Source: Symbiodinium sp. CCMP2592 (Eukaryota > Sar > Dinophyceae > Suessiales > Symbiodiniaceae). Taken from it: DNA of 64,000 bases. Made by a program: the position numbers and the translations under genes. Location: NCBI GenBank assembly GCA_905221615.1, contig CAJNDT010003546.1:649909-713908 (forward strand). The letters are read 5' to 3'. This document shows, in pieces, positions 1 through 24,929 of the stretch (position 1 is its first letter; every line of letters starts with the position of its first letter). The notes under the pieces are model-generated. The model did not search any database. It worked only from the letters and a program-made list of their open reading frames with translations, and was not told the origin of the DNA.

Positions 1-897
1 TTTGCAACCCCGATACGATCCACCCGGCGTGTCCTCGTACTGATTGAGAAGCCCCAACGGATTTGCTGAGGTGTGTCTCGCTCGTGGTGCACAGAGGTGT
101 GGGCATTTCGGGCTTGCTGACCAGGCCTCCAAGAAATAATCGAGAAGGCTTTGATACATTCCGCTTCGAATGTCGATTGACTCCTGCTTTCTGCCTTTGG
201 CCCGGTACAGGGCCATGTTGGCATCGCCGCCGATGAGGTCGACTTGATAGTGCAGGCAGTCGATGAACATGTTGCCCAACGCCTCGTGTGCCAATGCCAC
301 CTTTTCTGCTGCAATGTCGTTGCGGAGGTGGAAGCAACAGACGCTGATGCGGTCGGAGCCGGCACGCTCCAGGACCCTGGTCAGCGCCGCGTCGGGGAAG
401 TCGCCACGAATTCCCTGACTCCCTGCTGGCAATGTCATCCCATACACGATCTCGACGATCATATACGTGATCGGCAGAGCCTGATGAGCAAGCCCAGTGT
501 AGGTTGAGTCAGCCAGCCGGGTGATGCTGCTTCCGACATTGTTTGTCCGGCATCCAATGAGAATGTCCTTGGAGGCATTCTGTATTGTTTGCCAGCCTCG
601 GCTGTAAAGGAACTCCAGTTCGGGTGCCGATACCTCGGAGGCCTCGCACAACATGAAGAGGTGTGACTTACTCTGGGCGATCGATTTGATAAGAGCCCCC
701 TTGGATGGTGCCGAGTCTTTGTAGTCAATGTTGTCCGCAACGGATGAAGGTGCTGATCGTTTCCTCCCTCGGCTCATGTTACCGAGATTGATGATAAGAG
801 CGGCATACTTGGACTTGCTGGTGTAGATAGGAACAGGCCCACCCTCTGCTATAGCCAAAAACGATGGAGGTATGGACTCGGCATCTTCTCAAGAGAG
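1..897 (-). pseudogene. C-terminal block with a nuclease/phosphatase-like GGDAN motif
   Basis: Open from about 888 to the window edge (about 295 codons, still open). It begins after a CT microsatellite (889-907) that shifts the frame from the block upstream. Visible pieces include PVPIYTSKSKYAALIINLG, a basic MSRGRKRSAP stretch at 777, and DLIGGDANMALYR at 240-202. G-D-x-N following a hydrophobic strand is the pattern of endonuclease/exonuclease/phosphatase folds (GDFN in LINE endonucleases), so a degenerate or divergent member is possible; the histidine and second acidic motifs needed to confirm this are not evident. The 3' end lies outside the window. Confidence 0.45.
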
Positions 898-898
898 A

Positions 899-1236
899 GA
901 GAGAGAGGTCCCCGATCTTATCCTCGTCAACTCCAGCGTTCAGGAAGTAGTGAAGCATTGCATTGAGAAGCCCTTCCCGAGATGCCGGATTGCCGCTATC
1001 ATTCAGCATTTTCACCTTTTCGATGAGAGCATCCTGAACTTCAAGAGCCGATGCACAGATGTCAGAGGCTTTCTCCATCAACTTGTCATCAAAGGTGCTG
1101 CGAACGTCTCCCGATCTGAAAACCACGTCGAGGCGCTCGGGTCTGCGCTCATAAATCGGAGACATTCTGCAAAGCTGAGCAAACAAGTCCACGGTGCGGT
1201 GGCACATTGACTCTCCAACTCATATGTTGCACTTTA
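899..1236 (-). pseudogene. Helical block of the decayed gene
   Basis: Open minus-strand stretch reading from about 1230 (ERRPERLDVVF, then FDDKLMEKASDICASAL and ASREGLLNAMLHYFLNAG) to the CT repeat at 889-907, where it goes out of frame into the nuclease-like block. Composition suggests amphipathic helices. The frame of the preceding block continues past 1215 only as a shadow, so a one- or two-base indel lies near 1210-1230. No family recognised. Confidence 0.4.
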
Positions 1237-1860
1237 AATGCGAGCACTGGGTCCCGCTGATGGTCGCGAATGCCGGTATGGTAGAGGCCGCTGTAGCCAT
1301 ATCCTTTGTTCTGCTTTGCTAGCAAGCGCATGGGACTCTCACGTTCGACATTGACGAGGTCGGTGAGGAAGGACTTGTACTCATCTGTGTCGACGAGACC
1401 AATCTTCTCCTTCGCCTTCCCCAGGTCCTCGAACGCGTTCTCGTTCTTCTCCTCTGCATCTTTGGCGGCCTTGTTCCACTCAGGATTGGTGACGTTCTTG
1501 GATTTCCCCCAGATGCCTTGATCGTGAAGTTCACTTTCATCATCTTTCTCGGGAGAAATGTCTGGCATGGATTCCTCACCCTGTGGTGAGCTTTCCTCAT
1601 CCATATCGTCGCCTCTTCTCCCTGAGGAGAGCCTTCGGCAGGCGGTTCGGCTTTCACCCCAGATGCCTCTCCCTGAGGAGAGCTTTCCGGCCGGTTCAGC
1701 CTTTACTGGACCAGCTCTCTTGCCCTGTGGCAAGTCTCCTGATCCTGTGGCTGGTTCGGAGGTGTCCATGGGTGCGGCCGTCTCCGGCTCATCAACCTCT
1801 TCGACCTGTGGACCGGGCAGCTTTTCGAGAAACTCTTCGACGAGAAGATCTTCATAAGGT
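1226..1860 (-). pseudogene. Acidic, hairpin-bearing linker and charged helix block
   Basis: Reading down from about 1860: an acidic stretch (PYEDLLVEEFLEKLPGPQVE), then a P/E/S-rich linker with four mini-hairpins, then a charged helical part (NPEWNKAAKDAEEKNENAF) and YKSFLTDLVNVERESPMRLL. A TAA ten bases before the first codon separates it from the block above. The two middle hairpins (1616-1631, 1667-1682) are out of register with the outer two (1575-1590, 1719-1734), showing two opposite small frameshifts inside the linker. Probably disordered plus coiled-coil; no enzyme domain. Confidence 0.4.
1575..1734 (-). repeat. Four mini-hairpins (1575, 1616, 1667, 1719)
   Basis: Each is a 5-6 bp stem around a four-base loop (CTGA or CTGT on the plus strand): 1575-1590 with stem CTCACC, 1616-1631 with stem TCTCC plus a T-G outer pair, 1667-1682 with CTCTCC, and 1719-1734 with CTTGCC. 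The loop is nearly invariant and the stems differ with matching changes on both sides. On the coding (minus) strand they give S-S-P-Q-G-E, G-S-P-Q-G-E, S-S-P-Q-G-E and D-L-P-Q-G-K. Confidence 0.85.
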
Positions 1861-1869
1861 CGAGTTTAG

Positions 1870-2779
1870 AGTTCTTCCAACTCTGCCTCTCTTTTCTCTC
1901 GCGGGGTCTCATGCGCCAACAAATCTGACCGTGCCTTGCGAGCAAGGCTGACTTAAAGTCTTTGTTTTCGGCGCTGGAGAGAACCTTTTCCAAAGCCGCC
2001 AGCACATAGCGACCGTTGAATGGTTGCCTGAGGGTAGAGTCAAACAGACCGTCTCCCTCTGGAGTCTTCACAAGATACTTGCGACGGATCTCCGTGTCAT
2101 GTGCATGGCGCTGGATGTAAGAGAAAAAGTCCACACCATAGGACGAGCATCTGAAAATCCTCCCGCACATGGCCAATCTCAAGGTACACATCCCTTTCCT
2201 TGAGGAAAGCGGAAAGCATTGTGTGCCTCAAGCTTGCCAGAGTATAGTCAGGATCCTCCGTCTTTGGCATCCTTGAGCGAGCATCATCATCACGGGGGCG
2301 ATTGAAGCCAATGTTTCCAACGGAAGGTCGGAACTCATTCTGTGCGGCCACCGTGACATCTTGCATCATCGTCGCTAGGCCTCTTGGGTGACGCTGAAGG
2401 TTCGTGTATGGGCTGCGATACCCATGCGAGAAGACCTTCGGCTTCTTCTCCAACTCCACAAGGTAGTTCCCCTGAAGCTTCCCCATCTCGAAAGCCTTGG
2501 GGAAGAAGTGAAGGGAATAACCAGAGAGAGAGAGGATGTTGCAACCAGGTGGCTGTACTCTCCACCCAACGAGTCTCGCATGCTGGTCGACAAAGTGTGC
2601 CAGGGTGTGACCTGAACGAGTGCATCGCCATAGGTCGTCAACATCCGCTGACCACGAGAGTCGACTATGCGCAAGCGACCATGGGCAAAAAGATGCCATG
2701 GATTGGTTCTCGCCTTACGAAGGACCTTTTTGAGCTCCTCCTGCTGCTGGGCCTTGCGCGCATCAATCTTCCCGTGCAC
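1870..2779 (-). pseudogene. Central block of the decayed gene
   Basis: Three successive open stretches: 2779 down to about 2540 (KIDARKAQQQEELKKVLRKA, then FAHGRLRIVDSRGQRMLTTY), then a frame change to the stretch ending near 2150 (AFEMGKLQGNYLVELEKKP, then PDYTLASLRHTMLSAFLKER), then 2191 to about 1940 (RRKYLVKTPEGDGLFDSTL). The order and lack of spacer DNA indicate indels. A hairpin of the mini-element family sits at 2194-2209, coding RFPQGK in the block's own frame. No domain recognised; a lysine-rich helix opens the block. Confidence 0.4.
2194..2209 (-). repeat. Mini-hairpin, stem CTTTCC, loop TTGA
   Basis: Perfect 6-bp stem with a one-base loop change (TTGA for CTGA). The coding strand reads CGC TTT CCT CAA GGA AAG, R-F-P-Q-G-K, so the changed loop base is a silent CAG to CAA difference. 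Confidence 0.8.
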
Positions 2780-2799
2780 TGTGTCACCCGACTGGCACG

Positions 2800-3137
2800 C
2801 GTACTTGGTGGCCCATTCGGACTGCGTGGTGGATTGCCGCTCCTTCTCTTCCCTCAGCTCATTCTCACGAATATAGAGCAGCCGCGTCCAATGTGGGTAC
2901 CTCTCCCTGAGGAGAGCTTCCCATGGACGGCGACGCGCCGGTATCCTGAGATACCTTTGCCCTTTTCTTGGGAGCTGGCTTTTGAGGCTTCTGATCCGTG
3001 CTGCTTCCCGGCCCCTCTCCCTGAGGAGAGCCTCCGGTAGCGGAAGCAGATGCTGAGGTTCCCTCTTCCTGAGAAGAGCCTACCCCGAGCAGAGTGCTGC
3101 TTCTGTTCGTGGCGCAAGCCACCCGGATCCTTCTCAT
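2800..3137 (-). pseudogene. Hairpin-rich S/P/Q linker of the decayed gene
   Basis: Minus-strand frame encoding VGSSQEEGTSASASATGG, then GSPQGEGPG, a basic KPAPKKRAKVSQDTG patch, and GSSPQGEVPTLDAAAL. All three hairpins in this linker (3063, 3015, 2901) are in one frame, each giving the same kind of hexapeptide. After about 2880 the frame shifts by one base into ENELREEKERQSTTQSEW, which leads into the central block. Low-complexity and likely disordered; the KKRAK patch could be a nuclear signal, which is only a guess. Confidence 0.4.
2901..3078 (-). repeat. Three mini-hairpins (2901, 3015, 3063)
   Basis: 2901-2916 and 3015-3030 have stem CTCTCC with loop CTGA; 3063-3078 has CTCTTC with loop CTGA. 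In the third, both stem halves differ at the paired position (CC to TC, GG to GA), so pairing is kept and the peptide becomes S-Q-E-E in place of P-Q-G-E. All three share one minus-strand frame. Confidence 0.85.
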
Positions 3138-3147
3138 GTGGCGGCCT

Positions 3148-3280
3148 TTAGTGGAACGTCAAGTACATCGGCGCCACGTCGGCGTATGAGAGCACCACGC
3201 CGTTGTCTGTGAGATACAGATCGTGGCCGTGGCTCAAGAAGCTTTCATAGTCAAGCTTGGCTGGATGTACGAGCCGTACT
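3148..3280 (-). pseudogene. Short block, weakly KptA-like tail
   Basis: Minus-strand stretch reading KLDYESFLSHGHDLYLTDNG, then VVLSYADVAPMYLTFH and a TAA (3148-3150). The pattern of a strand, S/T-x-NGV-(V/I)-L, and a P-x-(K/M)-Y-L end recalls the C-terminus of RNA 2'-phosphotransferases (KptA/Tpt1), which are common in dinoflagellates. The fragment is too short to be sure, and the H-x-R catalytic motifs of the family were not found in the blocks upstream. Confidence 0.25.
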
Positions 3281-3395
3281 TAATGAAAGTCCCAGGCCCC
3301 GGCCCCGGAGAAACCTCTCCGCCCGCGTAAACGAAGTGGATGGCTCTCCTGTGCCTCTGCCACGAAGCCTTCTTAGCCTCCAACAGCAATCCCCG

Positions 3396-4378
3396 CTAGC
3401 GGATACTTCCATAGTTGAAGTTATCCGAGGCACGAAAGATCATGCCGAGCTGGTGGCATCTTCGCAGGGTGAGCTTCTCACCCAGGGCGACATCTGACAC
3501 CTGTTCCGGAACTCTGCTGTGTCCTTGAGCTGCTGAGACGCTGATCTGAAAGTCAAAGTCGAGGAAGCGCTCGAATGGCAATGCTGTCGGTTTCAGCCAG
3601 ATGCTGAAGCGGCCCTTCGAGTTCGCCCTCAGGAAGCTGAAGAATTTTCGTGCGTTCCAATCGAACGGTCGAAGGACAAAACTTCATCATCGTTTCCAAG
3701 GAGATTGCCATGTACTTTCCTGGGGTGACCCGCTCTTCATGTCTCGTCAGCTTGGAAAGTGCCTTCGAGGAACGAACGGCCCAACTGCCATGGTCGTGAC
3801 GGAGCTTGTAGACCTCGGCGATCTCCTTGTCCATCACCTCCAGAGTCCAGGCAACAGCACAGGAACTCGTACTTCCGTACGAGATCTCTCTGCAGAATGT
3901 GTGTTCCAGGGTGGCTCTCCTCATAAAGACGGACATGTGACAGAAATGCCAGCTGTCCCTCCAGAATCTCTGGTACGACCTTCTCCCCATGAGGGAAGTA
4001 CGCCGTAACATCCTTCTGTCCGTAGAAGCGAGGAACAGGGTTGGGCTTGATCTTGAGGGAGGCCACAGGTGCATCGCGTGGAAAGGCCCGACCTCCCAGA
4101 GGAGGATAGGTAACCACGTCGCCATCTCCAACTGATCGGAGTACACGACGTGGCTCCCAGGACGTTCTCTTCAGATACATGGCAAAGTCAGGGACACCAG
4201 TACGGAGGTCAACCTTGATGTTGCATCCATTGTTCGGTGTCCAGAAACCTGCACTGGTGCCATGCTGGTAACAAAAGTGGAAGTTGTGGGCTACTTTCTC
4301 ACTAGAGTCTTGAATCAGCTGATTTGAGCAACGCAGGCACAAATTTAAAAAGACCAACAACTCTTCATGAATGCACAT
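3396..4378 (-). pseudogene. N-terminal block of the decayed gene
   Basis: Starts near 4378 (ATG at 4378-4376 is one choice) and reads AHNFHFCYQHGTSAGFWT, VPDFAMYLKRTSWEPRRVL, DVVTYPPLGGRAFPRD and HGEKVVPEILEGQLAFLSH. Near 3880 the frame changes to EVMDKEIAEVYKLRHDHGSW and SKALSKLTRHEERVTPGKYM, and it continues through MPFERFLDFDFQISV to about 3400. Mixed charged and aromatic composition looks globular. Family unknown. Confidence 0.4.
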
Positions 4379-5884
4379 GCGCTGAATTGCTCTGACAGCT
4401 CACACATGCAGCAGACATGACTCACAGACGCTCCTGCATGAACATGACATGTTGCACATGACTCAAAGCCGCGTGCTCCTTGCGAAGCCAGGCCTTCAAG
4501 AATGCTTTGTGCTCAATCATAGAACGAAAAGGAGGATGTGAATCGATTTCCTTTAACCATCCAGTTTGAACAGCGTTCAGGAGGTTTCTAGGATGAGCGC
4601 TTCGTTTCGTGAGACAATCAGAAAGACAATGTTCGGTTCGAACGTGAGAAAGATCAGCCTTTCCCCACAGAACAAGCTTCCTTCCTCAGCATTTGAATCA
4701 TGTGAATGGCCCGGTTTCCTGTTGTTCGGGTGCGTGAGTAGTAGAAGCGGTAGACACGAGATTGTTAGCATCGGTTCGCATGTGAATCACCACTAATATC
4801 CTTCCACAAACCACGAAGCATCCCTGGAGATGCTTTTGTCGTTTCTTAAAGGTCGTGTTGTTTCTTTTTATTAAATGCAGTTTCACGCTTTTCTCTTGGG
4901 GACTTGTCGTTTCTTAAAAAACGTCAAACGTTTGTTTGGGGTGGGGGCCCAAGAAACGTCAATGAAGTCAGTTGGGGGCGAAAAAAACGTCAAACATCGA
5001 TTTGAGGCCCAGGAAACGTCAAAGCTAAGGCCAGACGGCTGCAAAGAAAAACTTAAGTGTTTCTTATGACCTGGACCCCTTTGTGCATAAACTTCATGCA
5101 TGGACATCGATTAGACAATTCATGCATCGGTTACGATTTTGCACTGATCGATATGTAATGTCTTGGGCTTATTGGCGGGAAAGCCCTACCCTAACTACAC
5201 CGCTCAAATGAGATGTGCTGCGAGAAAACAGACATTCACCCTTTTGCAACACGAAATCCAAAACAAGTCAGGTTTTGAACATGTTTTGGCGACACATTAC
5301 AGAGCGAGTCCATTTGTCACATGTGTCTGTATCATAGATGATTTATGGCACAATTGCATACATTTCCACTGCTTTTCCGTTACGGATGTAATTTTACTAT
5401 ATGGTATTTGGCCACAAACACTTTGATATCGCAAGTCTATGTTGTCAAAAACCTTTGAAACGCTTCGTCTACCTCTAGAATGGCCATGATCCTATAGGCT
5501 CTTTGAATTGAAACAGCAGACGCCTGATAGCAGGAAAATCGATAGAAGTTTGCGCAGCCTTGTTCTAATAGTAAATCATATTTTTGTTTAGTTAGAAGCA
5601 GGACACCGGGTTCAGGCAGGGCAGGGTTTATGTTTAGAACTTCAGGCCGGGTTCGGTAGGTTTCGGTTTTCAAAGCCGTGCAAATAAACTCAAATTCCTG
5701 GAGCCCAAAAACTGCTTAAGTTCACATCACACGTCTAGGATGTATGGTCTTACCAAAGCGATCCTTGGAGTAAGTGAATAAAGGGATAAGACTGTAAAAG
5801 CAAGAAAAATGAGAAAGACTGAAAGTCTTGATTGAGAAGGGGCTGTATCGTGCTCTGTGTGTATAAGCAAACCTAGTAAGAATT
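4379..5884. other. Non-coding stretch with dispersed AAACGTCAA motifs
   Basis: No convincing gene. Between 4840 and 5030 the motif (A)AAACGTCAA(A/C) occurs four or more times at uneven spacing in both orientations with TTTCTTAAA. The same motif cluster returns at 7810-7950. The open frames here (such as 5163-5426) are short with no coding bias. The part from 5430 to 5880 is AT-rich and featureless. Confidence 0.5.
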
Positions 5885-6510
5885 GGGCGTCACGATTGTG
5901 ACGCCGTCACGCCCGTCACGGGGCACTAGACAGGCCGTGACGCCGTCGTGGCGCGCTCACGCTTGTCACGGCGGCGCTCCAGCCGCACATGACTACAGGC
6001 CGTGACGCCGTCGTGACGTGGTCACGCCCGCCACGGGGGCGCTACAGCTATCAACGACTACCCGCCGTGACGCCGTCGTGACGCGGTAACGCTTGTCACG
6101 GGGGCACTAAAGCTATCAACGACTACAGGCCGTGACGCCGTCGTGACGCGGTCACGCTTGTCACGGCGGCGCTCAAGCCATCACAATATGACGACAGGCC
6201 GTGACGCCGCCGTGACGCGGTCACGCCCGTCACGGGGACGCTCGAGCTGTCAACGACTGCAGGCCGTGACGCAGTCGTGACGTGGTCACGGCTCCTTGCC
6301 GGCCACGACGCCGTCAATGCCGCCGACCCGAGGCCGTGACCGCGTGAGTCACGGCCTGCAGTCGTTGATAGCTCTAGCGCCCCCGTGGCGAGCATGACGG
6401 CATCACGACGGCGTCACGGCCTGTATAGTCATTGATAGCTCTATAGCGCCGCCGTGTCGGGCGTGACCGTGTCACGACTGCGTCACGGCCTGCAGCTCTT
6501 GATAGCTCTA
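5885..6510. repeat. 65-bp minisatellite that reverses orientation
   Basis: About six imperfect units of roughly 65 bp (starts near 5932, 5997, 6062, 6127, 6196, 6261) built on CCGTGACGCCGTCGTGACG and GGTCACGC, followed from about 6330 to 6500 by about three units in the opposite orientation, so the array folds back on itself. Each unit itself contains GTGAC/GTCAC inverted pairs. It is far more GC-rich than the flanking DNA. Reading frames through it are not genes. Confidence 0.85.
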
Positions 6511-7695
6511 CTCGCGAATTTCGCTTCGGTTTCTTTCAGGCGGGCATCGTGCAGCCCAAATCTGGCCCGGTTTGTTTTCGCCAGCCCTGGCCCTGCAACA
6601 TAGACCTTACCTGCGTTCCGTAAGCTCTGAATTTCGAATCTTGAACAATCCCTACACTTATAGAAATGCCGGGGCCTCAGTGCCAGGCGTTGGCCCTTGT
6701 AATTTGTTTGAGTCCAAAACTTTGATATGTAGCTTCGAGGCTTGAAGACTTTCATAGGTCTTGCAGTCTATATCATCCTTATAATCAACTTTAAACCATT
6801 CAACACCCTCGAAGCCTGCGACTTCTCAAATTCTGTACTTTGATTGTTTTAAAATCTAAAATCCGACCCTGAACGAGCCAACCTCGGCCCTGTTGACCAA
6901 GCCCGCAACCTGAGACATTAGAAGGTTCGGGCTAGCAGTAGATTCGAGCCACAACCCTGAACCACGCCCTGTGTGCCAAAGAAAGCAAGCATCTAGCAAC
7001 CTTTTCCGGAGAGTGAGATGCATATGATCTTTTTTGCACGCGGGCACAAAATGCACACTTTGGCCAGGTGTCCTGTGCCAACATGGCTTGGTGGCAACAT
7101 GTTGGATTGACAGTTTTTAGTTCGCCGTGGTTTTGTTTAACAGCTGGTACCGTTTCTGCTTTGCCACAGACTTCTCGACGAAGCCATAGCTTTTTCGTTA
7201 AGTTGCAATAGTTGCCGATTGAAGCCTTGCAGCTCGATGAAGACATGTTGGTGCAAGCAAGCACGCACATGACTAGAAAGCATACATGGTGACACGAGCG
7301 GATAAGGCGTCACATGTAGCAAAAAGTTACGATGTGTCCGACAGAATAACATACCAAAAACTACTTGGAGTCGTCTGATTTGTCTTGGCAGCACAGACAG
7401 AGTCAAAAAAACGCTATCCTAAACCCTAAAGAAACAACAACGTTAGTGCTCTTCGACTTTTCCTCCACAAAGCCCTATTTTGTTGGGTTCTGAGCGAAAC
7501 AAGATAAATATGATTAGCAGCTCTTCAAAAATGCTGGCGAGATACAGGTTGGGTGCGATGAGAAAAGCTGAGCAAAACCCAGAGCCCTCATGCAATCCTA
7601 CATCTGTCCCTGAGCCTTGAAGCCCTTTCGAACCCTAAAACCCCCTTGTCTCAGCTAAGCGCATTTGAACCCTAAGCCCCCACAACCCTCAACCG
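6511..7695. other. Unassigned non-coding DNA
   Basis: AT-leaning sequence with several single CCCTAAA-like words (near 7420, 7625, 7665) that resemble the TTTAGGG telomere repeat. Short open frames (for instance 6932-7270 minus) show no family resemblance. I see no gene. Confidence 0.4.
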
Positions 7696-7699
7696 ATTG

Positions 7700-7729
7700 T
7701 TGGGCTCAAGCATATTTTGGCTCAGCAAG
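7700..7729 (+). other. Possible tandem relic of the dinoflagellate spliced leader
   Basis: Sequence reads TTGGGCTCAAG at 7700-7710 followed by CATATTTTGGCTCAGCAAG at 7711-7729. The 3' half of the known leader is CCATTTTGGCTCAAG. The second part matches ATTTTGGCTCA and then AAG after a two-base insertion; the first matches the last eight to nine bases. Tandem truncated leaders are the known mark of mRNAs returned to the genome by retroposition. The match is imperfect and no gene follows. Confidence 0.35.
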
Positions 7730-7799
7730 GAGACGAGAAATAAATATGGCTCAAACATCTGGCGGGGGAAGCTCGCAGTGCAGACTTCGGTGACAAGCA

Positions 7800-8021
7800 G
7801 GCGCTAATTCAAAGCACTCTCACGTTTCTTTAAATGTCAAAGCTTACATTGGAGGCTGTTTCACGCTTTTTTTTAAACGTCAAAGCTCACATGGGGGTCG
7901 GGGGAGAGAAACGTCAATTCTCCCTGCTCGCCCAAAAGAAACGTCAAACGTTCATGTCGCCGCCGCACGATTCTTGATGTTTTGTCCTCGACTGGATGTT
8001 TCTTGGTGAGTGGCCACGCTT
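7800..8021. repeat. Second cluster of AAACGTCAA motifs
   Basis: Between 7818 and 7952 several copies of (A)AACGTCAA or AAATGTCAA alternate with TTTCACG(C) and G-rich spacers, as at 4840-5030. The cluster lies directly beyond the 3' end of the copia RNase H fragment on the minus strand, so it might belong to the element's 3' region. Confidence 0.5.
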
Positions 8022-9072
8022 TCAGGTCTGACAGGTACCAAAACACTTCATCAAAGCATACAACTCAGCGACAGTGGTGCTAAGGGTCGTTCTGTTAATC
8101 TTGGTAGATTCGAAGAAGACCAATGAGCCTCTGGTGTCTCTTCGGTTCTTGACCCTTTCATCAGCAATGAAAATAGTCATCGCTCTCTGCGAAGACTTGT
8201 CGCTGTTGTTACGGAAAGCTGCGTTCTTACCCTGTGCATCAAGAACCCAACGAACACGCTGTCCAGTGAACGTAAGGTCATTCTTGTCCTCGTGACCGAC
8301 AGTTAAGTTTTCCTTTATCTTCTTGAGGAACCAAGTGACGAACTCAGGGGTTCCATTTATGATGAGATCATCAACATGAAGGCTCATCACTCCAACTGTC
8401 TTCCGGCCTTTACTCGGACTTCCATGCACAGGGTCAACGAAGTGCTCAAGAAGCTGATCAACCAACTCGGGAGAGAGTTCTGAAAGACTCTCGACCTTGT
8501 AAGAAGCCTTCTCTGGAAGGAACAAGGAGACGAGAACCTCAGCTTCCTCTTCCAGGAAACAGGTCTTGTCACCCTTGTCCAATTTCAGGTCATAGGCCCT
8601 TTCCACAATCCACCATGTTCCTTTCCGAAGGATCATCGAAACACGGTAAGGGTAGTCCTTGACCTGATGGACAGGTGCAGGAGTACGAAGAGCCTTGGCT
8701 CTGTGAGAAACGAGAGCATGCCCGTTCTCATAAGGGAACCAACCTCTCTTCTTACAAGCGACACTGTCCAAGAATCCAAGAAGCTTACTGTCAGTAACAG
8801 GTCTCCAAGCATAGTCAACCATCTTCTTGGTCTCGGTGTTGAAGCAGTGAGCAATATCGGGACATGAAAGATAGGATCTCTCCTCCGCACGGTCCGAGGA
8901 AGAACGGTTTCCTTCATCGTATGCGTAGCATGACATGGCATGAAGGGCAACCTCCTTGAGGTAGGCAGGTTCCACCTCATGAGAGGTGCTTCCTGCCTCA
9001 GGTTCCTTCTCCTGAGAGAAGCTTCCTGCCTTCGATGCAGTCGTATGCGACATAGGTGCATCGGTCAGCTCG
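8022..9072 (-). pseudogene. Copia pol: RT catalytic half and RNase H remnant
   Basis: A 343-codon frame (9053-8022). Near its N-terminus lie two hairpin-encoded linkers (GSFSQEKEP, GSTSHEVEP). Copia RT features follow: VMSLHVDDLIINGTPEFVTW (the x-x-D-D catalytic box) and LTVGHEDKNDLTFTGQRVRW. The final part, TTLSTTVAELYALMK, matches the S-S-T-E-A-E-Y-x-A-L signature of copia RNase H. Only about 60 residues separate the two, where intact elements have well over 100, so a deletion is likely. Upstream of 9053, RADRCTYVAYD in a neighbouring frame continues the RT to the insertion site. Confidence 0.75.
8973..9021 (-). repeat. Two mini-hairpins (8973, 9006) in copia pol
   Basis: 8973-8988: stem CACCTC, loop ATGA, coding S-T-S-H-E-V. 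9006-9021: stem CTTCTC, loop CTGA, coding S-F-S-Q-E-K. The stems share few bases with each other or with the CTCTCC type, yet both pair perfectly. They are 33 bases apart and in the same frame. Confidence 0.85.
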
Positions 9073-9129
9073 AGTCGTCGGTGGTGGCGGTATGTTTTTG
9101 CTTGTTTCCGTTTTTTCTCCTTTTCCGGC

Positions 9130-9345
9130 CAAGCCGCAAGCTAGCAAGCAAACCACCAGGCAAGCCAGCAAGCCAGCCAGCAACAAGCAAGCAAGCCAGC
9201 AAGCCAGCGAGCAAGCAAGCATGCAAGCGTGCAAGCAGGCAAGCAAGCAAGCGAGCAAGCAAGCAAACACGCAAGCAAGCAAGCAAGCAATCAAGCAAGC
9301 ACGCAAGCAAGCAAGCAAGCAAGCAAAGAAGTGCGCAAGCAAGAA
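9130..9345. repeat. (GCAA)n tetranucleotide tract
   Basis: About 210 bp of CAAG/GCAA units with scattered substitutions. It produces open frames on both strands (Q/A/S-K rich on plus, L/A/C rich on minus) that are artefacts. Confidence 0.9.
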
Positions 9346-9577
9346 AGGAAGCAAGGATAGAATCGTTGCAGCCTCCTGTTACTCCTTCCTACTACCTACT
9401 TCCTTCTTCCTTCTACCTGCCACCTACTACCTACTATACCACCACCACCACCACTACCACCTAGCACCTAACACCTAGCACCTATACCACCGACCACTCA
9501 CCTACCACTTGCCACCTCCACCACCCACCACCTAGCACCTACCACCTACCACCTAGCACCCACCGCTGCTACTACTA

Positions 9578-10552
9578 CCCTATCCCCCCCTGGTGCGACG
9601 CCGGTCGCAGAGTTCGTGGATGTACAACATGTTTCCATCAGAGCTGTCGCGGAATGCGCTAGACCATGCACGTCATTAGGTTTTGGACATGGATGCTCTC
9701 CAAACCAAAATGCGCTAGACCATGGACGTCATTAGGTTTTGGACATGGTTGCTCTCCAAACCTCAATGCGCTAGACCATGGACGTCATTAGGTTTTGGAC
9801 ATGGATGCTCTCCAAACCTCAATGCGCGAGACCATGGATGTCATTAGGTTTTGGACATGGATGCTCTCCAAACCAAAATGCGCTAGACCATGGACGTCAT
9901 TAGGTTTTGGACATGGATGCTCTCCAAGCCAAAATGCGCTGGACCATGGACGTCATTAGGTTTTGGACATGGATTCTCTCCAAACCTCAATGCGGTAGAC
10001 CATGGACGTCATTAGGTTTTGGACATGGATGCTGTCCAAACCTCAATGCGCTAGGCCATCGACGTCATTAGGTTTTGGACATGGATGCTCTCCAAACCTC
10101 AATGCGCTAGACCATGGACGTCATTAGGTTTTGGACATGGGTGCTCTCCAAACCTCAATGCGCTAGACCATGGACGTCATTAGGTTTTGGACATGGGTGC
10201 TCTCCAAGCCTCAATGCGCTAGACCATGGACGTCACTAGGTTTTGGACATGGATGCTCCCCAAACCAAAATGCGCTAGACCATGGACGTCAGTAGGTTTT
10301 GGACATGGATGCTCTCTAAACTAGGATAACAGCAAAAAACATGAATTTTGCAAAGACAAGTGCTGTAAATACCAGCATTTTGAGGTGCGAGATTGATGAG
10401 CAATGTTAGAAAACATGATAAAAATACACACGAAACCAGGAACAGTTGCCACTTTCGATAACTGCGGAAAAAAGTGCTGTAAGACACAGCATTTCCGACC
10501 ACAACAGGTTCCAAGAATAAGAGGTCTGGGCGTCGCACCGGGGGGGATGCGG
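9578..10552. mobile_element. Small TIR element carrying a minisatellite
   Basis: Left end CCCTATCCCCCCCTGGTGCG through GACGCC (9578-9602) is matched in reverse complement by 10529-10552, with two mismatches and one extra base. Outside both ends lies the same (TAC)n simple repeat, so the element appears to sit inside a TAC microsatellite. It is 975 bp, has no ORF, and most of its body is the 56-bp array. MITE or foldback element; autonomous partner unknown. Confidence 0.6.
9653..10325. repeat. 56-bp minisatellite, 12 copies
   Basis: Unit starts with AATGCGCTAGACCATGGACG and ends in ATGCTCTCCAAACC; starts at 9653, 9709 and then every 56 bp. Copies differ at only a few positions (ACCAAA/ACCTCA, ATGGATG/ATGGTTG), so the array is young or homogenised. 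Direct repeats without unique spacers, hence not CRISPR. Confidence 0.95.
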
Positions 10553-10601
10553 TACTACTACTACTTCTTCTACTCCTACTCCTATACTCCTACTCCTACT
10601 C

Positions 10602-10655
<54 letters not shown>

Positions 10656-10697
10656 TCACTACTACGACGACTACAACTACTACTAGTACTACTACTA

Positions 10698-10729
<32 letters not shown>

Positions 10730-10781
10730 GCTACTACTACTGCTGCTACCAATACTGCTACTGCTGCTGCTACTACTACTC

Positions 10782-10815
<34 letters not shown>

Positions 10816-10872
10816 GACTGCTGCTACGACTACCACCTCTACTGCTACTAGTACTACTGCTACTCCTACTAC
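10553..10872. repeat. (ACT)n trinucleotide tract
   Basis: About 320 bp of TAC/ACT units with interspersed GCT and CCT. It gives poly-Thr on plus, poly-Ser and poly-Val on minus; none is a gene. Confidence 0.95.
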
Positions 10873-10972
10873 TACACCACATACCCCTACCCCTACCCCT
10901 ACCCAAACAAGGGAAACGGAAAACATGAGAAAACAAACGAAAAATGAACAAACGAAAACAAGCCTATAGTCG

Positions 10973-11540
10973 GTTCCATGCCAACAGACCGGAGAAACTT
11001 ATCCAAATGATTCCACCATCTTCTCGGTGCATCGTTCAGACCATAGACCGGTCGGAGGCACAAACCAACCATCCAAGTTGGCAGGCCGATGTCAGGGGAC
11101 AATTGCACCACAACCATGCGAGATGACAGATTGTAGTGCTCGCCCTGAAGGAAAGCGGTCTTAAGATCCAAATGAAAAAGATCCCAATAGTGATTGGCAG
11201 CGCGCTGCGCAACCAAACGGCAACCGTACCGAGTAGCCGTAGGGCTGTCCGTTTGTTGATCCTTGTCCTGAAACCCACGACAAACCCAACGGGCATTGAA
11301 CTTGGAAAAGTAACCGTTTTTGTCAACCTTCACCGCAAGGACCCATCGTCCGGTCAGAAAATTGACATGGCGACTAATTTTGCGGCGATCCGTGAGCCGA
11401 ATAGCATCATTGTCCAAGTAACTCTTGAACTCCTCAAGCTTGGCCGCACGAATTTCAGCAGCATACTTGCACTGCATCTCCGGCATCAAGGTGCCAGCCT
11501 TGATCTTGTCCTGCTTGGTCAACCACGACGCAAAACCATC
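10973..11540 (-). pseudogene. Copia reverse transcriptase, first half
   Basis: Frame running down from 11519. It carries the conserved opening of the RVT_2 domain: GRWVLAVKVDKNG, ARWVCRGFQDKDQQTDSPTA, the first catalytic aspartate in FHLDLKTAFLQGE, and RPVYGLNDAPRRWW. It then reaches G-M-E-P-T at the insertion boundary. Upstream text LDGDGFASWLTKQDKIKAGT lies in a frame shifted from the linker above, marking a one-base indel near 11545. Motif spacing is normal for copia. Confidence 0.85.
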
Positions 11541-11913
11541 ACCGTCCAACGGAAAGACGGAACCTTATTGTCCGACGGAAGGCGGATCAAGACGTCATCG
11601 TCGCCACAAGCCAAAGCAAGCAAACTCTCATGACGATAGTCAACCGTCGCATCAGAGTCAGTATCCTGACCAGCTTCCGGCACCGGCGGTTGTGGGGTGG
11701 GTTCCGGGAGTGGGGCTTGCTGAATGGGAAATTCTCTCTCAATCACTGGCAAACCAGGAACCGGAGCCGGATCAGACGACGAAGAAGACGGTTCATCATG
11801 AACCGGAAAGTCCCCTGAAGAGTGAGGATCCTTCTTCCCTGCAGACTGGGAGGAGGAGGAGGAGGCGGAGGAGGAGGAGGCGGAGGAGGAGGAGGAGGAG
11901 CATCCTTGCGTGC

Positions 11914-11978
11914 CGTTCCCTGAGGAACGCTGCCCTTGGCTCTCATCCCTCGCCACCGGTTCCTTTCCCTGAGGAAAG
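11914..11978 (-). repeat. Two mini-hairpins (11914, 11963)
   Basis: 11914-11929: stem CGTTCC, loop CTGA, coding S-V-P-Q-G-T. 11963-11978: stem CTTTCC, loop CTGA, coding S-F-P-Q-G-K. They are 49 bases apart, so their coding frames differ by one, matching the frame break seen in the surrounding linker. Confidence 0.85.
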
Positions 11979-12383
11979 CTTCCAGCTGCTCCTGGTTTCT
12001 TCGAGCTGTCTTCAGGCTTGCCTTTACTAATCATATCCTCTGGTGGCACGAGTGGGATCTCGGGACTTAGCTGGTACCGAGGTTCTACTCTCGATACCAC
12101 CAGACAAAATCTTGAAGACTGTCCTACCATTCCAAGAATCAGTTGTTCGTGTGGAAGGAAGCTCAGAAGAACGCCAGTCATCTTCTTGAGTAACACTCTT
12201 GCCCTTGGAGAACTGCATGATCGTCTTGCGCTTGTTGTCCAGATACTCCAACGGAATGGACACGGAGCCCGCCTTGGGTTCATACTTGACCTTCCTCATC
12301 TTCTTGTGAATCCGGATCATCTCCATGTCGGCTTCGTTGATAACCCACTCATCATCCGTCGCCAATACCAGATTGTGGGGTAC

Positions 12384-12399
12384 CTCTTCCTGAGAAGAG
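12384..12399 (-). repeat. Mini-hairpin, stem CTCTTC, loop CTGA
   Basis: Same sequence as 3063-3078 in the unrelated gene at the left end. Codes S-S-S-Q-E-E in the frame of the copia linker, followed by V-P. Confidence 0.85.
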
Positions 12400-12556
12400 C
12401 TTCCCTGGGTCTTCTGGTGGAACCCATACTCGCAGTGGGAGAAGTGAGGCGTGAGGAAGCTCGACTTCTTGTGCTTGTTGAACCGGACGTTCCAATCAAC
12501 TTGCTGAGGTCGAGAAGGTCCAGTACCAGGTGTGAGCTAGGAGCAGCCTTTAGCTT

Positions 12557-12784
12557 CGGAGATCAGGTAAGCCGATGCTCAGGCTCTGGGTGCAAGAAGA
12601 AGAAGATAGAGTAGAAAGTAGTTGTATAGAAGAAGAAACATGTTGCTCTGCTTATTGGGGGGTAAAACGCCTTCTCGACAAAAGACAGAAGTGTATAGGG
12701 ACTTGTGCAGCAAACTGTTAAGATGCTTTTCTGTCGGTCGTTCGCTCGTGGAAACAGTACTGCTGTGGCCATCCCCCTTCCGGG
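12557..12784 (+). repeat. 228-bp repeat, copy 1
   Basis: Nearly identical (about five differences) to 21153-21380 and exactly the same length. Starts CGGAGATCAGGTAAGCCGAT and ends CATCCCCCTTCCGGG. The copy abuts the copia pol linker on one side and non-element DNA on the other. It begins next to CAG|GTAAG, a splice-donor look-alike on the plus strand, but ends without AG. Ends share only CGGA/TCCG, so it is not a clear TIR element. Both copies have the same orientation. Confidence 0.85.
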
Positions 12785-13004
12785 GGTTATGAGCCCAAGT
12801 CGTTCGTGCCATGGATAGTTCAGCTCCGCCCGAGTCTGCAAGAGAAAGGAGGCTGGATGTAACAACCTGCTAGAAGTGCTCACGGACAGTTCATTTGCAC
12901 CGGATGCGTCACGCTCTAATGAATGCTGCTTGTTGTTCGTTGAAAACTGCCTTGTTGGTTGGCATGTCACGCGCCAGGCTTATATGACTCAAAGCTCATG
13001 TTAG
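12785..13004. other. Short unassigned spacer
   Basis: Lies between the 228-bp repeat and the plus-strand copia tail. No frame with coding character and no repeat recognised. Confidence 0.4.
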
Positions 13005-13636
13005 ACTGAGCTCTTAGCAACAGCTACAGGGTGTTGCTTTGCACAGGCTCATGTCTACCTCTTGGCGGAGTTGGCGCAGAAAGCGCCACGCGTCCACATC
13101 TACAATGATAATCAAGCAGCCGTATCTGTCTTCGTAGGGCAAAGCTCCCATTGGAGAACGAGGTCGTTGAGAATCAAAGCTCGCACGATGCGCGAGCGGT
13201 GGGAAATGGGGTTTTACATGATTAGCCACATTGCGGGGTTGCAGAACGGAGCTGATTTAGGTACCAAGCCTTTGGGAGCTCAAAGCGTAAAGTATCTATG
13301 CAGTTTGATCGGAGTTCAAGAGATAGGAAACACTTCAGTCCACAACCCGAAGGAGAGCCAGGGTCTGTCAAAGGCCACGTTGAAGTGTTTGCAGGTTGTG
13401 CTTTTGGCATGTATGGTTTGCCAAGCTGAAGGACACCGGTCCACTGAGGTTGATGATTACGGAATCGCATGGATGTTCTGGATAGGGGTCGTAGTTATGG
13501 TCGTGTGCTGTTGGGAAGGGCTGAAGTTTGGGATTAGGACTCTTTCGGCGGTTCTAGCTCGGATGCGGAGGCCGGATTTACAAGAGCCTTTGCCTGAGGA
13601 CCATGTAGAAGCACTGCAGATGCAGACAGAGCTCAG

Positions 13637-13705
<69 letters not shown>

Positions 13706-14453
13706 AAGACGCCTCCTTGAAATTGGCCTGAAAATTAATGCCAAGAAAACCCAAGTCATTTCTAATCGGAAAGACGACCCGTTTAGGTTCCTTATAGGAG
13801 GGGTTGAAGTAGTCCCTGACGGCCCCGACGCCATAATGACCATCCTTGGAGCCCCAATTAGTCTGTCTGGGGAGGTTGCCCCCATTGTGGCGGAGATGCA
13901 AGCTCGTGCCAGGAGATCTTTTCAAGCCCACAAAAAAGTTCTGTGCTCTAAAGCCCCGCTCAAAGAGCGCCTAGTGCTGCATCAGACCTTAGTCAGAGCC
14001 TCAGCCTTATGGGGTTGCCCGGCATGGCCCATACAGTCATCTTTGCTACAAGCTGCCAACTCAACGCAGCTCCTGCAAGTTAGGACGATCGTTGGAGGGG
14101 AGAGAACCCCCACGGAAAGCTGGCATCAGTGGCATGTACGCACTATGCGTAGATCACGAGCCCTAATGCACCAGTGCAAGATCACCCGTTGGTCCACCCA
14201 TGCTCTGCAAATGCAGTGGAACCTGTGGGGCCACATTGGAAGAGCTGTCTTCCAGCCCACCTTCCATATCATGCGATGGCGCGATCTTACGTGGTGGAGA
14301 GACCAACAGAACCTCCTGCCAGGCCCTGCTCCTAAGGGGGTCCGACATATAGGCCACCACAACCCCCAAAGGGACCCGGAAAGAAAGATTGAAGCCACAG
14401 CTGCCACGCATGGTGGACAACAGCCTCTGACCGCTCCTTATGGCAGTTCATGA
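13005..14453 (+). pseudogene. Fused ORF: copia RNase H tail, ER tract, LINE RT tail
   Basis: One open frame of 463 codons from 13062 (open back to 13005; no convincing ATG). Residues 1-100: copia RNase H end, with VHIYNDNQAAVSVFVGQSSH, SLRIKARTMRERWE, then H-I-A-G-L-Q-N-G-A-D-L-G-T-K-P-L. Residues 140-165: one strong membrane segment (AWMFWIGVVVMVVCCW). Residues 187-213: Glu-Arg run from the (GA)n tract. Residues 216-463: C-terminal part of a LINE reverse transcriptase (EIGLKINAKKTQVIS, TILGAPISLSGEVAPIV, LVRASALWGCPAWPIQ). Neither half has its catalytic residues complete, so this is a chance in-frame junction of two dead elements. Confidence 0.75.
13636..13703. repeat. (GA)n tract at the copia/LINE junction
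   Basis: About 34 uninterrupted GA units marking the boundary between the copia tail and the LINE tail. Microsatellites are common junctions for LINE insertions. Confidence 0.95.
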
Positions 14454-14655
14454 GTGAACACTTCGTGGATCAAAATGATCCCCAATGGGCCTCAGGCAAC
14501 CAACTTGCACTCCCTGGAGCCCCTAATTTGGCCCCTAACAAATCGGCCCGCACGAACCCACCTCGAAGAGGTGTAATAAGTTGTGTCACTCCCCGGGGAG
14601 CCCCCCGAAGGGCGGCGAAGGTGCACTTGGCGCGCGCTGTGATGGACGGATGACT
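13704..14655 (+). mobile_element. LINE 3' fragment
   Basis: From the RT thumb region to the ORF end. After 14445 the LINE frame shifts by one into SLWQFMSEHFVDQNDPQWAS and ends at a TGA near 14653. The 5' truncation at the GA tract is the usual outcome of incomplete reverse transcription. It lacks the endonuclease and the D-D box. Confidence 0.7.
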
Positions 14656-15316
14656 GAACATCAGGACAGTCCAACAGCAAAGCAGCAGCCCTGACCAAAC
14701 TGCTAGAGGGCACGAGTACCCTACATGACAGCACGGTCACCCCGACTGCAGCAGCAAAATTGAGCTTAGGGTCCAAACCTACTCTTTCGAAGAACTTGTG
14801 CGAGAGTTTTGATCCCAACTTGTACCCCCTGACCCTAAACCAACCAGGACCTTCATCCCGCTGCAGTTGCCACACATGTGATTGCATACCGTTGCATGCA
14901 CTGCCAGATTCAGCCACACTGCATGACTGTCGTACTGGATTAGCCCGCCAATGCGCTCCTGCAGCAAGAATCGCCGAGGTACCGCAGTGCTGACAGCTCG
15001 AGCTGATACTTAGGTGCTGTACCGCGCCGAGACAAGCCATGCCCTTGCACCAGTACTTTTTGCGACTGGCTGCCTTCAGCCTCTGGATGCAAACATCCCG
15101 AGCTGGCACGCAGATAAAACCTTCAAACAGAGAAGGCCAGGACCCTACTGACAGTGACTCTTCGGATGCCCCTGTTGCGCCACCTGAACCACCTGATGCA
15201 GGGGAAGTGCCCCTACATGTCCTGGGAATGCCCACCAACACGGCGGAGAACAACGGCTACCACGAGGTGACGAACATTCCGGTACTACGACACCCCAGGC
15301 GATACACGAACCGAGC
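14656..15316. other. Leader region before the two-ORF element
   Basis: Plus-strand open stretches occur (15039-15395, with GEVPLHVLGMPTNTAENNG), acidic then basic, which may be an upstream piece of the following element in another frame. No domain, promoter or terminal repeat recognised. Confidence 0.35.
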
Positions 15317-18300
15317 ATGGCGCAAGGAGACCGCCCACCACAACCGAACCAGCCGACCTACGGAGGCCCAGTGCAGATGGCGTTCCCGACTTTAACGGGA
15401 CTTTCTTCGGCGAGTACCTCCTGGAGCCCCTCTACGGCAAGCATTACGCAAGCACTACCCCAACCAGGCCTTCCTCCTCAATCGCGTGATCCAGAACTAC
15501 CACACCGAGCTCAGCGAACAGAACCGGGGCGAACTTCTACATGGACCCCGACTACCAACCCAATGGACGCACAACGAGCTGAACGAACGACACCATCCAC
15601 GCCCTCTGCGACTTCGGCATCCTCTTCCTCGATGAGACCACTACAGGACGCGACCGCAGCGGCGAACCCTGCCACTCAGCAGGACCGACATTCGGACTCT
15701 CTCCGATCTGCAGCCGCACACCATACCCAAAACCAACCAGAGCCGCTACAGCACCATCAACCTCCAGCTCTACCACATCAAGCTACCAGATTCGGTGTGG
15801 CTAAAGGCTTTCCCCCAACCTATGTGGCTGAACATGACCCATGGCACGAAGATGGCTATATCACCGCAGAAGAGATTGGCTACCAACCTTTACCTCTACC
15901 ACAACAACAACTTCATCACCAACAACAGCAACAGGGTGCTCCACCTCATCGTGACAGCCATCAACAACCACCACAACCACCTTTACAACCGCTGGTTCCC
16001 CAAACACCTGAACATCAACGAGGACCTCAAGCACAACAAGCGCCGCATCCCTCGCTACCACAATCACAACAAGCAGATGAAGCTGAGCCGATGCCCACCA
16101 TGGATCCATGGAACTTCCTGGCCAACCACTATGCAGGAGAGGGACCTCTTCTCCCACCGCACCAATGGCGCAACAACCCGCTGGGCTTGGATCGGCTACA
16201 TGTACGAGATCAACTTGATGACTCAGCGACTGCCAGCACTTGTGACCCAGATGAACCACATGCACCACCTGAACCCGAAGATGATCAACCACCGGCGGGC
16301 TATGAAGCAGGACCAGCCCAGGACCCTGCTCGCGACCTCCACTGCGACAACTCAGTTCATGAAGCACCAATGGAGACGACCGAAGCGACGATGGACGCCA
16401 CACAGCCGGCTACTCTGACCACCTTGGCCACAGCCCCGGCGGAACCTTCGACGTCCAGCCCAAGAACTACAACCGAAAGAGATGACCACTTGAAGTACGA
16501 TGGCCCCATGGCCCCCACAGCAACCAACGACGATGACTATGATACCAACAGCGAAGGGAACACCGAAGAACACTCGGAGACATCCTCCTCGGCATCGAGC
16601 TCCAACTCGGACGACCCGGACCTACAGACTTCTTCGCCACACCAAGGACAACACGAAGGTCAAGGGAAGCCGAGCAAAAGAAAAGCCGGGCATGGTAGTC
16701 AAAGAGTCAAGAACAAGGGCCAGAAGACTGATGTGAAACAACTATGGCGAAATCTCCAATGGGGGGACAAACCTCCGTGGCTGAGCTGGCGACAAACTTT
16801 GCCATACATCCAACAGGGAGTCAAACCCCCTTGGACCAAACCCAGGGTGAGACCGGAACATGAAAGCATGGTGGCTATGATGCTTGCAGCCCAAGACTAT
16901 GATAGGGACGCCGACGGCAATGTCATCAAGAAGAACCGCAACCGTGCTCCGCAACCCGGCGACGCAATACCTCCCCTACAACAAGCCCAAGACAGCAAGG
17001 CAAACAATGCAGCTGCAGAAGACCACAAGCGCAGACTAGACAGCAACCCCTACCTGCAGCCACCTCACCTTCGACAATCCCAAAGCAGTTCTTCAACTTC
17101 GGCAACGGGGGATGCCCCCCGGGTGGAACCAGCCCGACGAGCCCGTGACCTACCACCACAACAACGACGACCGAAAGCCCAAGTACATTTCCAACTGCCT
17201 GCGGACCATCGAGAAGAACCGCCCAAACCCACAAGGAGGCAACCCATGCTCCGGAAGTTCTCTGACAGCAACCGATTGCAAATCAAATTGGACGGAGTGA
17301 AGAACTATCCCATCTACCTGGTTGACAACAGACCGGATTCCTTACATCCTGACACCATGGACTACCTGGACAAGATCCATGTGACTGCACCCAAAGACGC
17401 GCCGCCAAAGCCACCACCACAACCAAGACAACATGTACCACAAGACAGCGCTCCACTGACCCAAAGGGGAGCCCCCCTCTTCTACCAACCACCACGACTT
17501 CGAGGAAATGACAGCGCCAGCGCGGGATCCAGCTCTGACCCTCCAACTCGACAAGCCCTGGACCAAGCAGCCACACCACACGACATCATGGACCTGGAGG
17601 CGACCAAGACAACAGCGACAGCATCGGGGAATAACCCCCAATGGAAGGCGCGAAAAGCAGATGAAAACAACTCCTTACAGAGCTCCATTCGTACAGGAGC
17701 GAACACTCAGGATCTATCATGGACCTGGGGCAGTCCTCCGACTACCTTACCGCCGGCGATCCCACTCAGCCCGAACGAGGTCTTGACTTTGCGAGGGGCA
17801 TCCAATGGAGCTTGGCGCGGGGTGGTGTGGACCCCTGCAGATCGAACCACCGTGAGACATCCTGACCGTCACCACCACGAACCTACGGCGGTTATCTTCA
17901 ACACCTTGAACAGCCACGTAGAAAAAGGCCCCACCCTGGCACCAGGCACAAGACTGACGATGACACCAGTGGGACCTTGGATCGCGACGACCAAAATTGA
18001 GCTCGCATACTCCCGGACCCCTCGCTTCTGGCTGATCCATATCGACGAAGCTCCAGTTCACAACGCATCCCAGGGGTGGATTCCCCTAGCTGCAGGACAA
18101 TCATTTTGGCTGGAATGGAAAGGACTTGACCGACTGTGGGCCCGGAGACCGCGCTTTGAAGGAGATATCCTACGATTGGGAGGCTTTTCTGAAATTCCGC
18201 CTGAGCAGCCCCCGAGACCTCCAACACCTCCTGAGCGACGACATCCAACAGGACCACGGGGAAGAACAAGACCTACACCGACCCAACAGCAGACACAACG

Positions 18301-20577: not shown

Positions 20578-20688
<111 letters not shown>

Positions 20689-20769
20689 TTTGAGAGCTAG
20701 GCGTCGAGGACTACTGTACCATTTCAAACCACTGAGCCGGAACTTGAACCGGCATCTCAGCAGGTGCCC

Positions 20770-21130: not shown

Positions 21131-21152
21131 ACGGCCATGCCAGCAGAGGGAG

Positions 21153-21837: not shown

Positions 21838-21839
21838 TT

Positions 21840-22432: not shown

Positions 22433-22434
22433 AG

Positions 22435-24190: not shown

Positions 24191-24329
24191 CCAGGCTGAG
24201 GATAGCTAGCAGCTGGGAGTCCGTGTACGTGGATGCACCGAACCGAACCCCCCCTATATAATATAAAAACTAAACCTTCGAAATCAAGTTTTAATATTAG
24301 GGAGGGGGGGGCCCTTTAATATTAGGGGG

Positions 24330-24685: not shown

Positions 24686-24733
<48 letters not shown>

Positions 24734-24885: not shown

Positions 24886-24929
24886 ACTTATGAAAATATA
24901 TAAGAGTACCTAACAGGATACCATAGGGG

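Follow-up and report, generated by a model that had tools for sequence, protein, structure and literature searches.

What are the small hairpins that recur along one strand of a 64,000-nt stretch of the genome of the coral-symbiont alga Symbiodinium sp. CCMP2592 (hereafter the window, which lies at the end of contig C3546), and are they kept for the peptide they encode, as mobile palindromes, or for the RNA they form? The original prediction described thirteen 16-base hairpins with a fixed loop and a GGAAG flank, which read as one hexapeptide type (S-x-P-Q-G-x) in two unrelated frames, and likened them to the palindromic elements of Rickettsia, where palindromic sequence sits inside reading frames. 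All thirteen hairpins are present. The motif, however, is not the 16-base unit with its flank: it spans 32 bases and includes an outer helix and a symmetric internal loop of purines, and the two frames are parts of a single copia-type long terminal repeat (LTR) retrotransposon. Selection on the hairpins at the RNA level is strongly supported. What it would serve is less certain: we give about an even chance (roughly 50%) to the reading that some 27 dispersed copies of one RNA structure are candidate protein-binding sites on the genomic RNA of this element, likeliest for its packaging.

The thirteen hairpins are all minus-strand features (a TCAG loop on the minus strand is CTGA on the plus strand). 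Six base pairs around a loop of 4 nt pair perfectly in 12 of them, while the hairpin at 1616 forms five of its six pairs, and the loop proved largely rather than fully fixed (plus-strand letters CTGA in nine, CTGT in two, TTGA and ATGA in one each). Beyond these, the window holds a hairpin at 2940 with the same loop and weaker ones at 4118-4149 and 3975-4006, and three additional ones lie in L003, the 10 kb left of the window. Table 1 gives the window hairpins with the coordinates of the 32-base structure.

Perfect hairpins of this size exceed chance in the part of the window concerned: positions 1-12560 contain 18, compared with a mean of 3.63 in dinucleotide shuffles, and among them NCAN loops occur 13 times in the minus strand and never in the plus strand. 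Further along, the counts are 3 versus 3.25 at 12561-24900 (one NCAN loop, in the minus strand) and 16 versus 8.90 at 28000-59000 (none in the minus and one in the plus strand). Two control stretches also exceed their shuffles in bare number, namely L004 (13 versus 2.57; one NCAN loop on each strand) and L039:7774-10000 (6 versus 0.78; none on either strand), and 13 stretches from other contigs, 122,740 bases in all, yielded 473 perfect hairpins, with four NCAN loops on each strand. Because a bare excess is thus found in controls too, it is the loop together with the strand bias, and not number alone, that marks the finding. The excess of perfect inner stems, within the element as well as in the two controls, would be in keeping with templated mutation, that is, template switching during replication or reverse transcription, which keeps inverted repeats perfect without selection and makes double changes in one step; such a process cannot, however, produce an NCAN loop confined to the sense strand.

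The carrier can be described from a second copy on another contig (the C6 copy, C6:37587-53773), an element with long open reading frames (ORFs) that lies within L038-L040, a 26-kb piece surrounding one of the places listed in the pattern search described below. It measures 16.2 kb between and including 184-bp LTRs with 2 mismatches, has a G-run on both sides where a target-site duplication was sought, carries the primer-binding site (PBS)-like TGGTAGCGGAGC 3 nt past the 5' LTR, and is ordered as ORF1 (1393 aa), an RNase H segment and ORF2 (1654 aa). Ty1/copia elements are defined by two direct LTRs of the form TG..CA, a PBS, and gag-pol with RVT_2 and an integrase upstream of the reverse transcriptase; the carrier is placed among them by its LTRs, the PBS-like sequence, a zinc-binding pattern in ORF1 and RVT_2. 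The RVT_2 domain was found in the window pol, which matches L039:793-1685, and in pol relatives, the named ones of which come from Symbiodinium, including S. microadriaticum. The dinoflagellate source assumed in the original prediction is correct. ORF1 shows an HHCC zinc-binding pattern and a 40-residue basic stretch with 20 R/K and no CCHC knuckle; ORF1 itself gave no Pfam match. ORF2 (L038:3868-8832) has a basic tail and a Tpt1/KptA-like RNA 2'-phosphotransferase domain (E 1.8e-5; its 25.3 bits fall below the Pfam cutoff of 26), and a precomputed PF01885 label is attached to nine of ten long ORF2 relatives. The window matches this element in blocks at 73-93% identity and, judged by these alignments, the copia pol and the supposedly unrelated gene at 1-4 kb belong to one broken copy, as its pol and its ORF2. 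In the window, low-complexity sequence and tandem arrays interrupt the pol at 9136-10875 (GCAA, ACCTACC, a 56-bp unit in 11.9 copies and TAC in 108 copies). The leader, from the PBS to the ORF1 start, was found in 14 of 20 fetched stretches from other copies, and six leaders on different contigs are 100% identical over 437-440 bases, which points to probably very recent copying. Near-identical leaders are too alike for a covariation test; more diverged ones carry changes within the hairpins. Another pol relative (65% in the best segment) is encoded on L002 (NYST01000022.1), which is filed as a Euryarchaeota metagenome-assembled genome and looks like eukaryotic contamination.

The repeated unit has an outer helix of 5 bp and an inner one of 6 bp, with a 3x3 internal loop between them and, as its cap, a tetraloop that is mostly TCAG, ACAG or TCAT. 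In 14 window copies (the thirteen and that at 2940) taken with 8 flanking bases, the outer helix starts three bases from the inner stem on each side, with 77.1% of its cells paired and changes on both sides at all five pairs, and the excess pairing fades about 8 bases from the inner stem. Over the whole structure, double-change cells number 36 in these copies (shuffles: 12.0) and covariation scores 0.649 (shuffles: 0.212), each unequalled in 500 shuffles, so the compensated stems first noticed hold up, apart from the mispaired hairpin at 1616, and a covarying outer helix comes in addition. In an alignment of 26 C6 copies (A2; the hairpin at 8638 is not part of it), 93.7% of cells are paired versus 65.7% in shuffles and 87 cells are double-changed versus 21.8, where the paired share leans towards the structure because a model built from the window copies had served to find 25 of the 26 members. 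A scan by inner stem is free of this bias as regards the outer helix, and the 20 NCAN hairpins of C6 picked in that way form 84 of 100 outer pairs (0/2000 shuffles).

Between the two helices, the bases facing each other tend to be identical rather than complementary. Within A2, positions -3 and +3 agree in 26/26 copies (23 A.A, 3 G.G) and positions -1 and +1 in 25/26 (21 G.G, 4 A.A, 1 T.G), each matched by 1 in 20000 shuffles, while positions -2 and +2 agree in 14 copies versus 6.1 expected (6/20000); these columns are unpaired in the model, so that their agreement is not favoured by it. It is unusual for non-canonical purine pairs to show themselves by nothing but covariation, as they do in this mirror internal loop. 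The mirror also argues against templated palindrome repair, which cannot produce identical, non-complementary strands.

Comparison of homologous sites allows changes to be followed one by one. The window (with L003) and C6 share 88.3% identity within the sites and 80.0% outside them. Across 15 chosen gap-free sites (1608, 2186, 2893 and 2932 were left out; three window sites are gapped in the alignment and do not enter the totals), 84 inner pairs are unchanged, five are double-changed and paired, and one is broken. Outer pairs are unchanged in 54 cases, changed on one side and still paired in seven, and double-changed and paired in three. Both helices together thus contain eight double changes compared with 0.79 in a shuffle that keeps the base changes (0/5000). 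One site illustrates the path: the stem is CTTCTC/GAGAAG in the window and in L032 and CTCCTC/GAGGAG in L019, and L024 has CTTCTC/GAGGAG, a G-U step between the two compensated states. A one-sided step of this kind speaks against templated mutation, as do the mirror loop and the sense-only NCAN cap, and we regard that explanation as very improbable. The doubtful hairpin at 2940 (2932..2963) was kept as no more than a candidate, as its matching C6 site lacks a full hairpin.

In the C6 copy there are 27 hairpins, all on the sense strand and spread from the start to the end of the element: the leader, ORF1, the pol region and the stretch from the ORF2 stop to the 3' LTR hold four each, and ORF2 holds the other eleven. 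They are densest beside the PBS. Of this number, 25 are model matches, L039:2101-2132 came from the inner-stem scan and L038:8638-8669 from a structure scan; a weak model match at L039:3078-3109 (E 0.34) was left out. Choosing by inner stem only gave 24 perfect hairpins versus 4.53 in shuffles (two pieces summed), with 20 NCAN loops in sense and none in antisense. The structure scan, which required both helices and the homopurine positions and took no account of the loop, covered both strands of ~244 kb, a total that does not include the short stretches L018-L037 and L041-L060, and returned 33 hits, 32 of them in element copies, all sense, and one in L012; the 13 stretches of other contigs contained one structure hit.

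A pattern search of the genome found 885 places, compared with 124 for the reversed pattern. Among the 100 of these 885 matches listed, 65 are perfect hairpins; 64 of these share three element stems between them, are distributed over 24 contigs and in many cases keep the same spacing, and no perfect hairpin lies outside the element's context. The 65th, C144, stands in the element's protein context and was dropped as an independent copy, its stems and surrounding protein letters being those of the element site L039:2017-2048. C59 was rejected as a hairpin outside the element because its inner stem does not pair. A match in viral contigs (L001) is a chance pattern match, and the viral contigs searched contain no pol relative.

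This distribution bears on the idea of a mobile palindrome. Insertion into many unrelated genes, as in Rickettsia, was not seen in the 122,740 bases of other contigs or among the 100 of 885 matches listed: the convincing copies in what was scanned belong to one element family, lie in sense only and are in part untranslated, and a palindromic element of host genes was rejected on these grounds. A subtler form would be a hyperparasitic miniature repeat that multiplies inside the retrotransposon, like the Rickettsia elements or organellar GC clusters, and keeps its pairing as a palindrome does. The leader and the 3' part do hold local arrays that resemble duplications, a 33-nt period is present at 8966-9031, and copies are extra or missing between relatives. 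Yet restriction to the sense strand and, so far as scanned, to one element family, the mirror internal loop, the compensated changes at homologous sites and the retention of sites in relatives of ~51% identity all count against it, and we consider it improbable.

Could the hexapeptide be what is selected, as a linker, with the hairpin as a by-product of codon choice? Of the 15 copies that ORF1 and ORF2 of C6 contain in full, thirteen do read as the S-x-P-Q-G-x type, as originally predicted, and the peptide recurs in relatives: most of ten long ORF2 relatives (51-65% identical) keep the peptides at the same sites, and some of the ten lack parts. The remaining two coding copies (8638 and 6690) are read in other phases, and eight C6 copies, those of the leader and those past the ORF2 stop, are not within an ORF. 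That hairpins occur in untranslated sequence and in each of the three phases speaks against the peptide. Besides, pairing links the second codon to bases of the fifth and sixth codons, which predicts the residue pairs S-E, F-K, T-V, P-G, C-Q and V-T. In 148 proteins with 151 unique contexts, P-G/S-E concordance was seen in 115 versus 75.8 in shuffles and second and sixth residues agreed with prediction in 73/95 versus 44.0 (0/5000 each), in contexts that are mutually related, include chance matches and leave 36/151 and 22/95 without fit. Residues such as F-K, T-V, P-G and C-Q change as complementary pairs. A peptide repeat was rejected, and the linker-peptide explanation is hardly credible; the claim that structure and not peptide is conserved held, on untranslated copies, other phases and covariation alike.

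A diverged sister family suggests how such sites may evolve. At eight comparable ORF2 sites, the residue encoded by the loop is Q at seven and H at one in C6. In P0140-P0143 and P0145-P0147 (~51% identical) it is never Q: the 52 readable cells comprise 50 S/F, one H and one P, so that the loop residue is changed at 8/8 comparable sites of the P0140-P0147 family; since these seven proteins are close relatives, this amounts to about one change per site. At 4043, the ninth of the phase-2 sites, the seven proteins carry no peptide of this kind. A loop that apparently changed everywhere together would fit a recognition code, in which a protein acting in trans reads the homopurine internal loop and the tetraloop, and a shift in its specificity moves all sites together. 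We put this forward tentatively. If true, protein and dispersed sites would co-evolve, like one lock and some 27 keys.

Taken together, a structure confined to the sense strand, spread over 16 kb, densest by the PBS and reaching the 3' end is what would be expected of sites on genomic RNA that are read by a protein. We infer that a protein made by the element may recognise the shape on the RNA strand only, through two helices, a mirror A.A / N.N / G.G internal loop and a [TA]CA[GT] cap. The cluster of four in the leader beside the PBS, together with the copies towards the 3' end, could let this protein select, coat and condense the 16-kb RNA. The likeliest binder would be the basic stretch of Gag described above. 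Packaging therefore seems the likeliest purpose, export or stability coming next.

Several points weigh against this proposal. Between window and C6, 11/75 outer pairs are broken, and in the window the mirror rule is weaker (-3:+3 in 9/14, -1:+1 in 13/14), which is expected of a decaying copy, yet is evidence against strictness. In the minimum-energy fold of the leader (z -5.98), arms that belong to neighbouring hairpins pair with one another in place of four separate hairpins; the fold of the 3' array (z -3.35) shows two of its three hairpins. The ~51%-identical relatives were compared from protein sequence alone. In addition, the cis signals of Ty1 and Ty3 are placed near the RNA ends, with a dispensable interior (PMC4974528), so that dispersed signals would be unusual.

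Every observation that the packaging proposal explains is shared by one other reading, in which ORF2 protein or a protein of the host binds the hairpins, much as Rev binds the Rev response element (RRE), and thereby acts on the export of the genomic RNA from the nucleus, on its stability or on its translation. The Tpt1/KptA-like RNA domain and basic tail of ORF2 would suit it, and homopurine pairs within a helix are a hallmark of the Rev site (PMC6649712). The hairpins of this element are spread over 16 kb. Export elements are usually local. We consider this reading possible, if rather unlikely. In general, ~27 natural variants in one RNA, near-identical copies on other contigs and a diverged sister family make recognition directly testable.

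Table 1. Hairpins and element remains in the window (32-base coordinates for hairpins; C6, corresponding site or sequence in the C6 copy).
Feature	Position	Strand	Remarks
Hairpin in ORF2	1567..1598	-	Stem CTCACC/GGTGAG, loop ACAG
Hairpin in ORF2	1608..1639	-	5/6 inner pairs; gapped in C6 copy
Hairpin in ORF2	1659..1690	-	CTCTCC/GGAGAG
Hairpin in ORF2	1711..1742	-	CTTGCC/GGCAAG, loop ACAG, internal loop aga/aga
Hairpin in ORF2, other reading phase	2186..2217	-	Outer helix weak in window, perfect in C6
Hairpin in ORF2	2893..2924	-	CTCTCC/GGAGAG; C6 site CTTCTC/GAGAAG
Possible hairpin	2932..2963	-	GGTATC/GATACC, loop TCAG; no full hairpin in C6, may be chance
Hairpin in ORF2	3007..3038	-	CTCTCC/GGAGAG; C6 CCCTCC/GGAGGG
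Hairpin in ORF2	3055..3086	-	CTCTTC/GAAGAG
Weak hairpin in ORF2	3975..4006	-	CTTCCC/GGGGAG, one G-T pair
Hairpin in ORF2, other reading phase	4118..4149	-	CTCCGA/TTGGAG, internal loop gta/atg
Pol-linker hairpin, second of pair	8965..8996	-	CACCTC/GAGGTG, loop TCAT
Pol-linker hairpin, first of pair	8998..9029	-	CTTCTC/GAGAAG; C6 CTCCTC/GAGGAG
Upstream-linker hairpin	11906..11937	-	CGTTCC/GGAACG; C6 CTTTCC/GGAAAG
Upstream-linker hairpin	11955..11986	-	CTTTCC/GGAAAG
Hairpin	12376..12407	-	CTCTTC/GAAGAG; C6 CTGTTC/GAACAG
Frameshifted ORF2 remains, accessory ORF downstream of pol	1..4378	-	Open 1654-aa relative in L038; extends left into L003
Copia RNase H end and junction to ORF2	4259..4821	-	89% to L038:8828-9399
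Broken pol with low-complexity inserts	8022..12554	-	RVT_2 in ORF 10899-11549; without ~3.2 kb present in C6

Elsewhere in the window, a plus-strand ORF at 13062-14453, which has no Pfam match, looks by eye like the RNase H terminus of a further copia element, with no series of NCAN hairpins in 12561-24900, and a fragment that matches eukaryotic large subunit (LSU) rRNA lies at 40953-41222 (Rfam RF02543, 173 bits).

How, then, does the structure compare with known systems? The supposed lack of a named counterpart stands as far as Rfam goes: no family matched the hairpins, the LSU rRNA being the only match to the window at gathering score and L038 and L039 having none up to E 0.1. In the open-licence literature, judged by titles and the starts of abstracts among the matches listed, no such hairpins in a dinoflagellate retrotransposon were found. 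The Rickettsia elements share the location of palindromes inside reading frames, and differ in that here no dispersal among host genes was seen, one strand is used and untranslated parts carry copies as well. Coding palindromes of nematomorph mitochondria are likewise inverted repeats in coding sequence, yet long, perfect and in mitochondrial genes, and the part of that report available mentions no common loop or internal loop (PMC6649704). Ty1 and Ty3 resemble the present element in having cis-acting sequences near the 5' end of an LTR retrotransposon RNA, whereas here copies run along the whole RNA and the Ty1/Ty3 interior is dispensable (PMC4974528).

In the hairpins of the element, the homopurine pair covaries between G.G and A.A, as in an RRE-like site; the G.G pair of the RRE itself can be replaced by A.A. 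The likeness is to stem IIB of the HIV-1 RRE, where a homopurine G.G pair (G48-G71) sits in a purine-rich internal loop between two helices and an arginine-rich helix enters the widened major groove (PMC6649712). The RRE, however, is one complex site on one RNA, with a bulge, as opposed to ~27 symmetric 3x3 loops in the element.

To our knowledge, dispersed structured packaging signals outside RNA viruses, and the choice of RNA by LTR retrotransposons whose Gag has no zinc knuckle, are open questions. Multiple stem-loops with a shared motif do occur along the sense strand of the genomic RNA in this Symbiodinium element. For several RNA viruses, dispersed packaging signals that recruit coat protein and promote assembly have been proposed (PMC6281560). 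As in the MS2 type, many stem-loops with variable stems and a common recognition motif are strung along a genomic RNA; the MS2 motif is short and degenerate, consisting of loop letters and one bulged A (PMC6281560), whereas the motif of the Symbiodinium element is 32 nt long, has two helices that covary and a symmetric internal loop between them, and is carried by an LTR retrotransposon.

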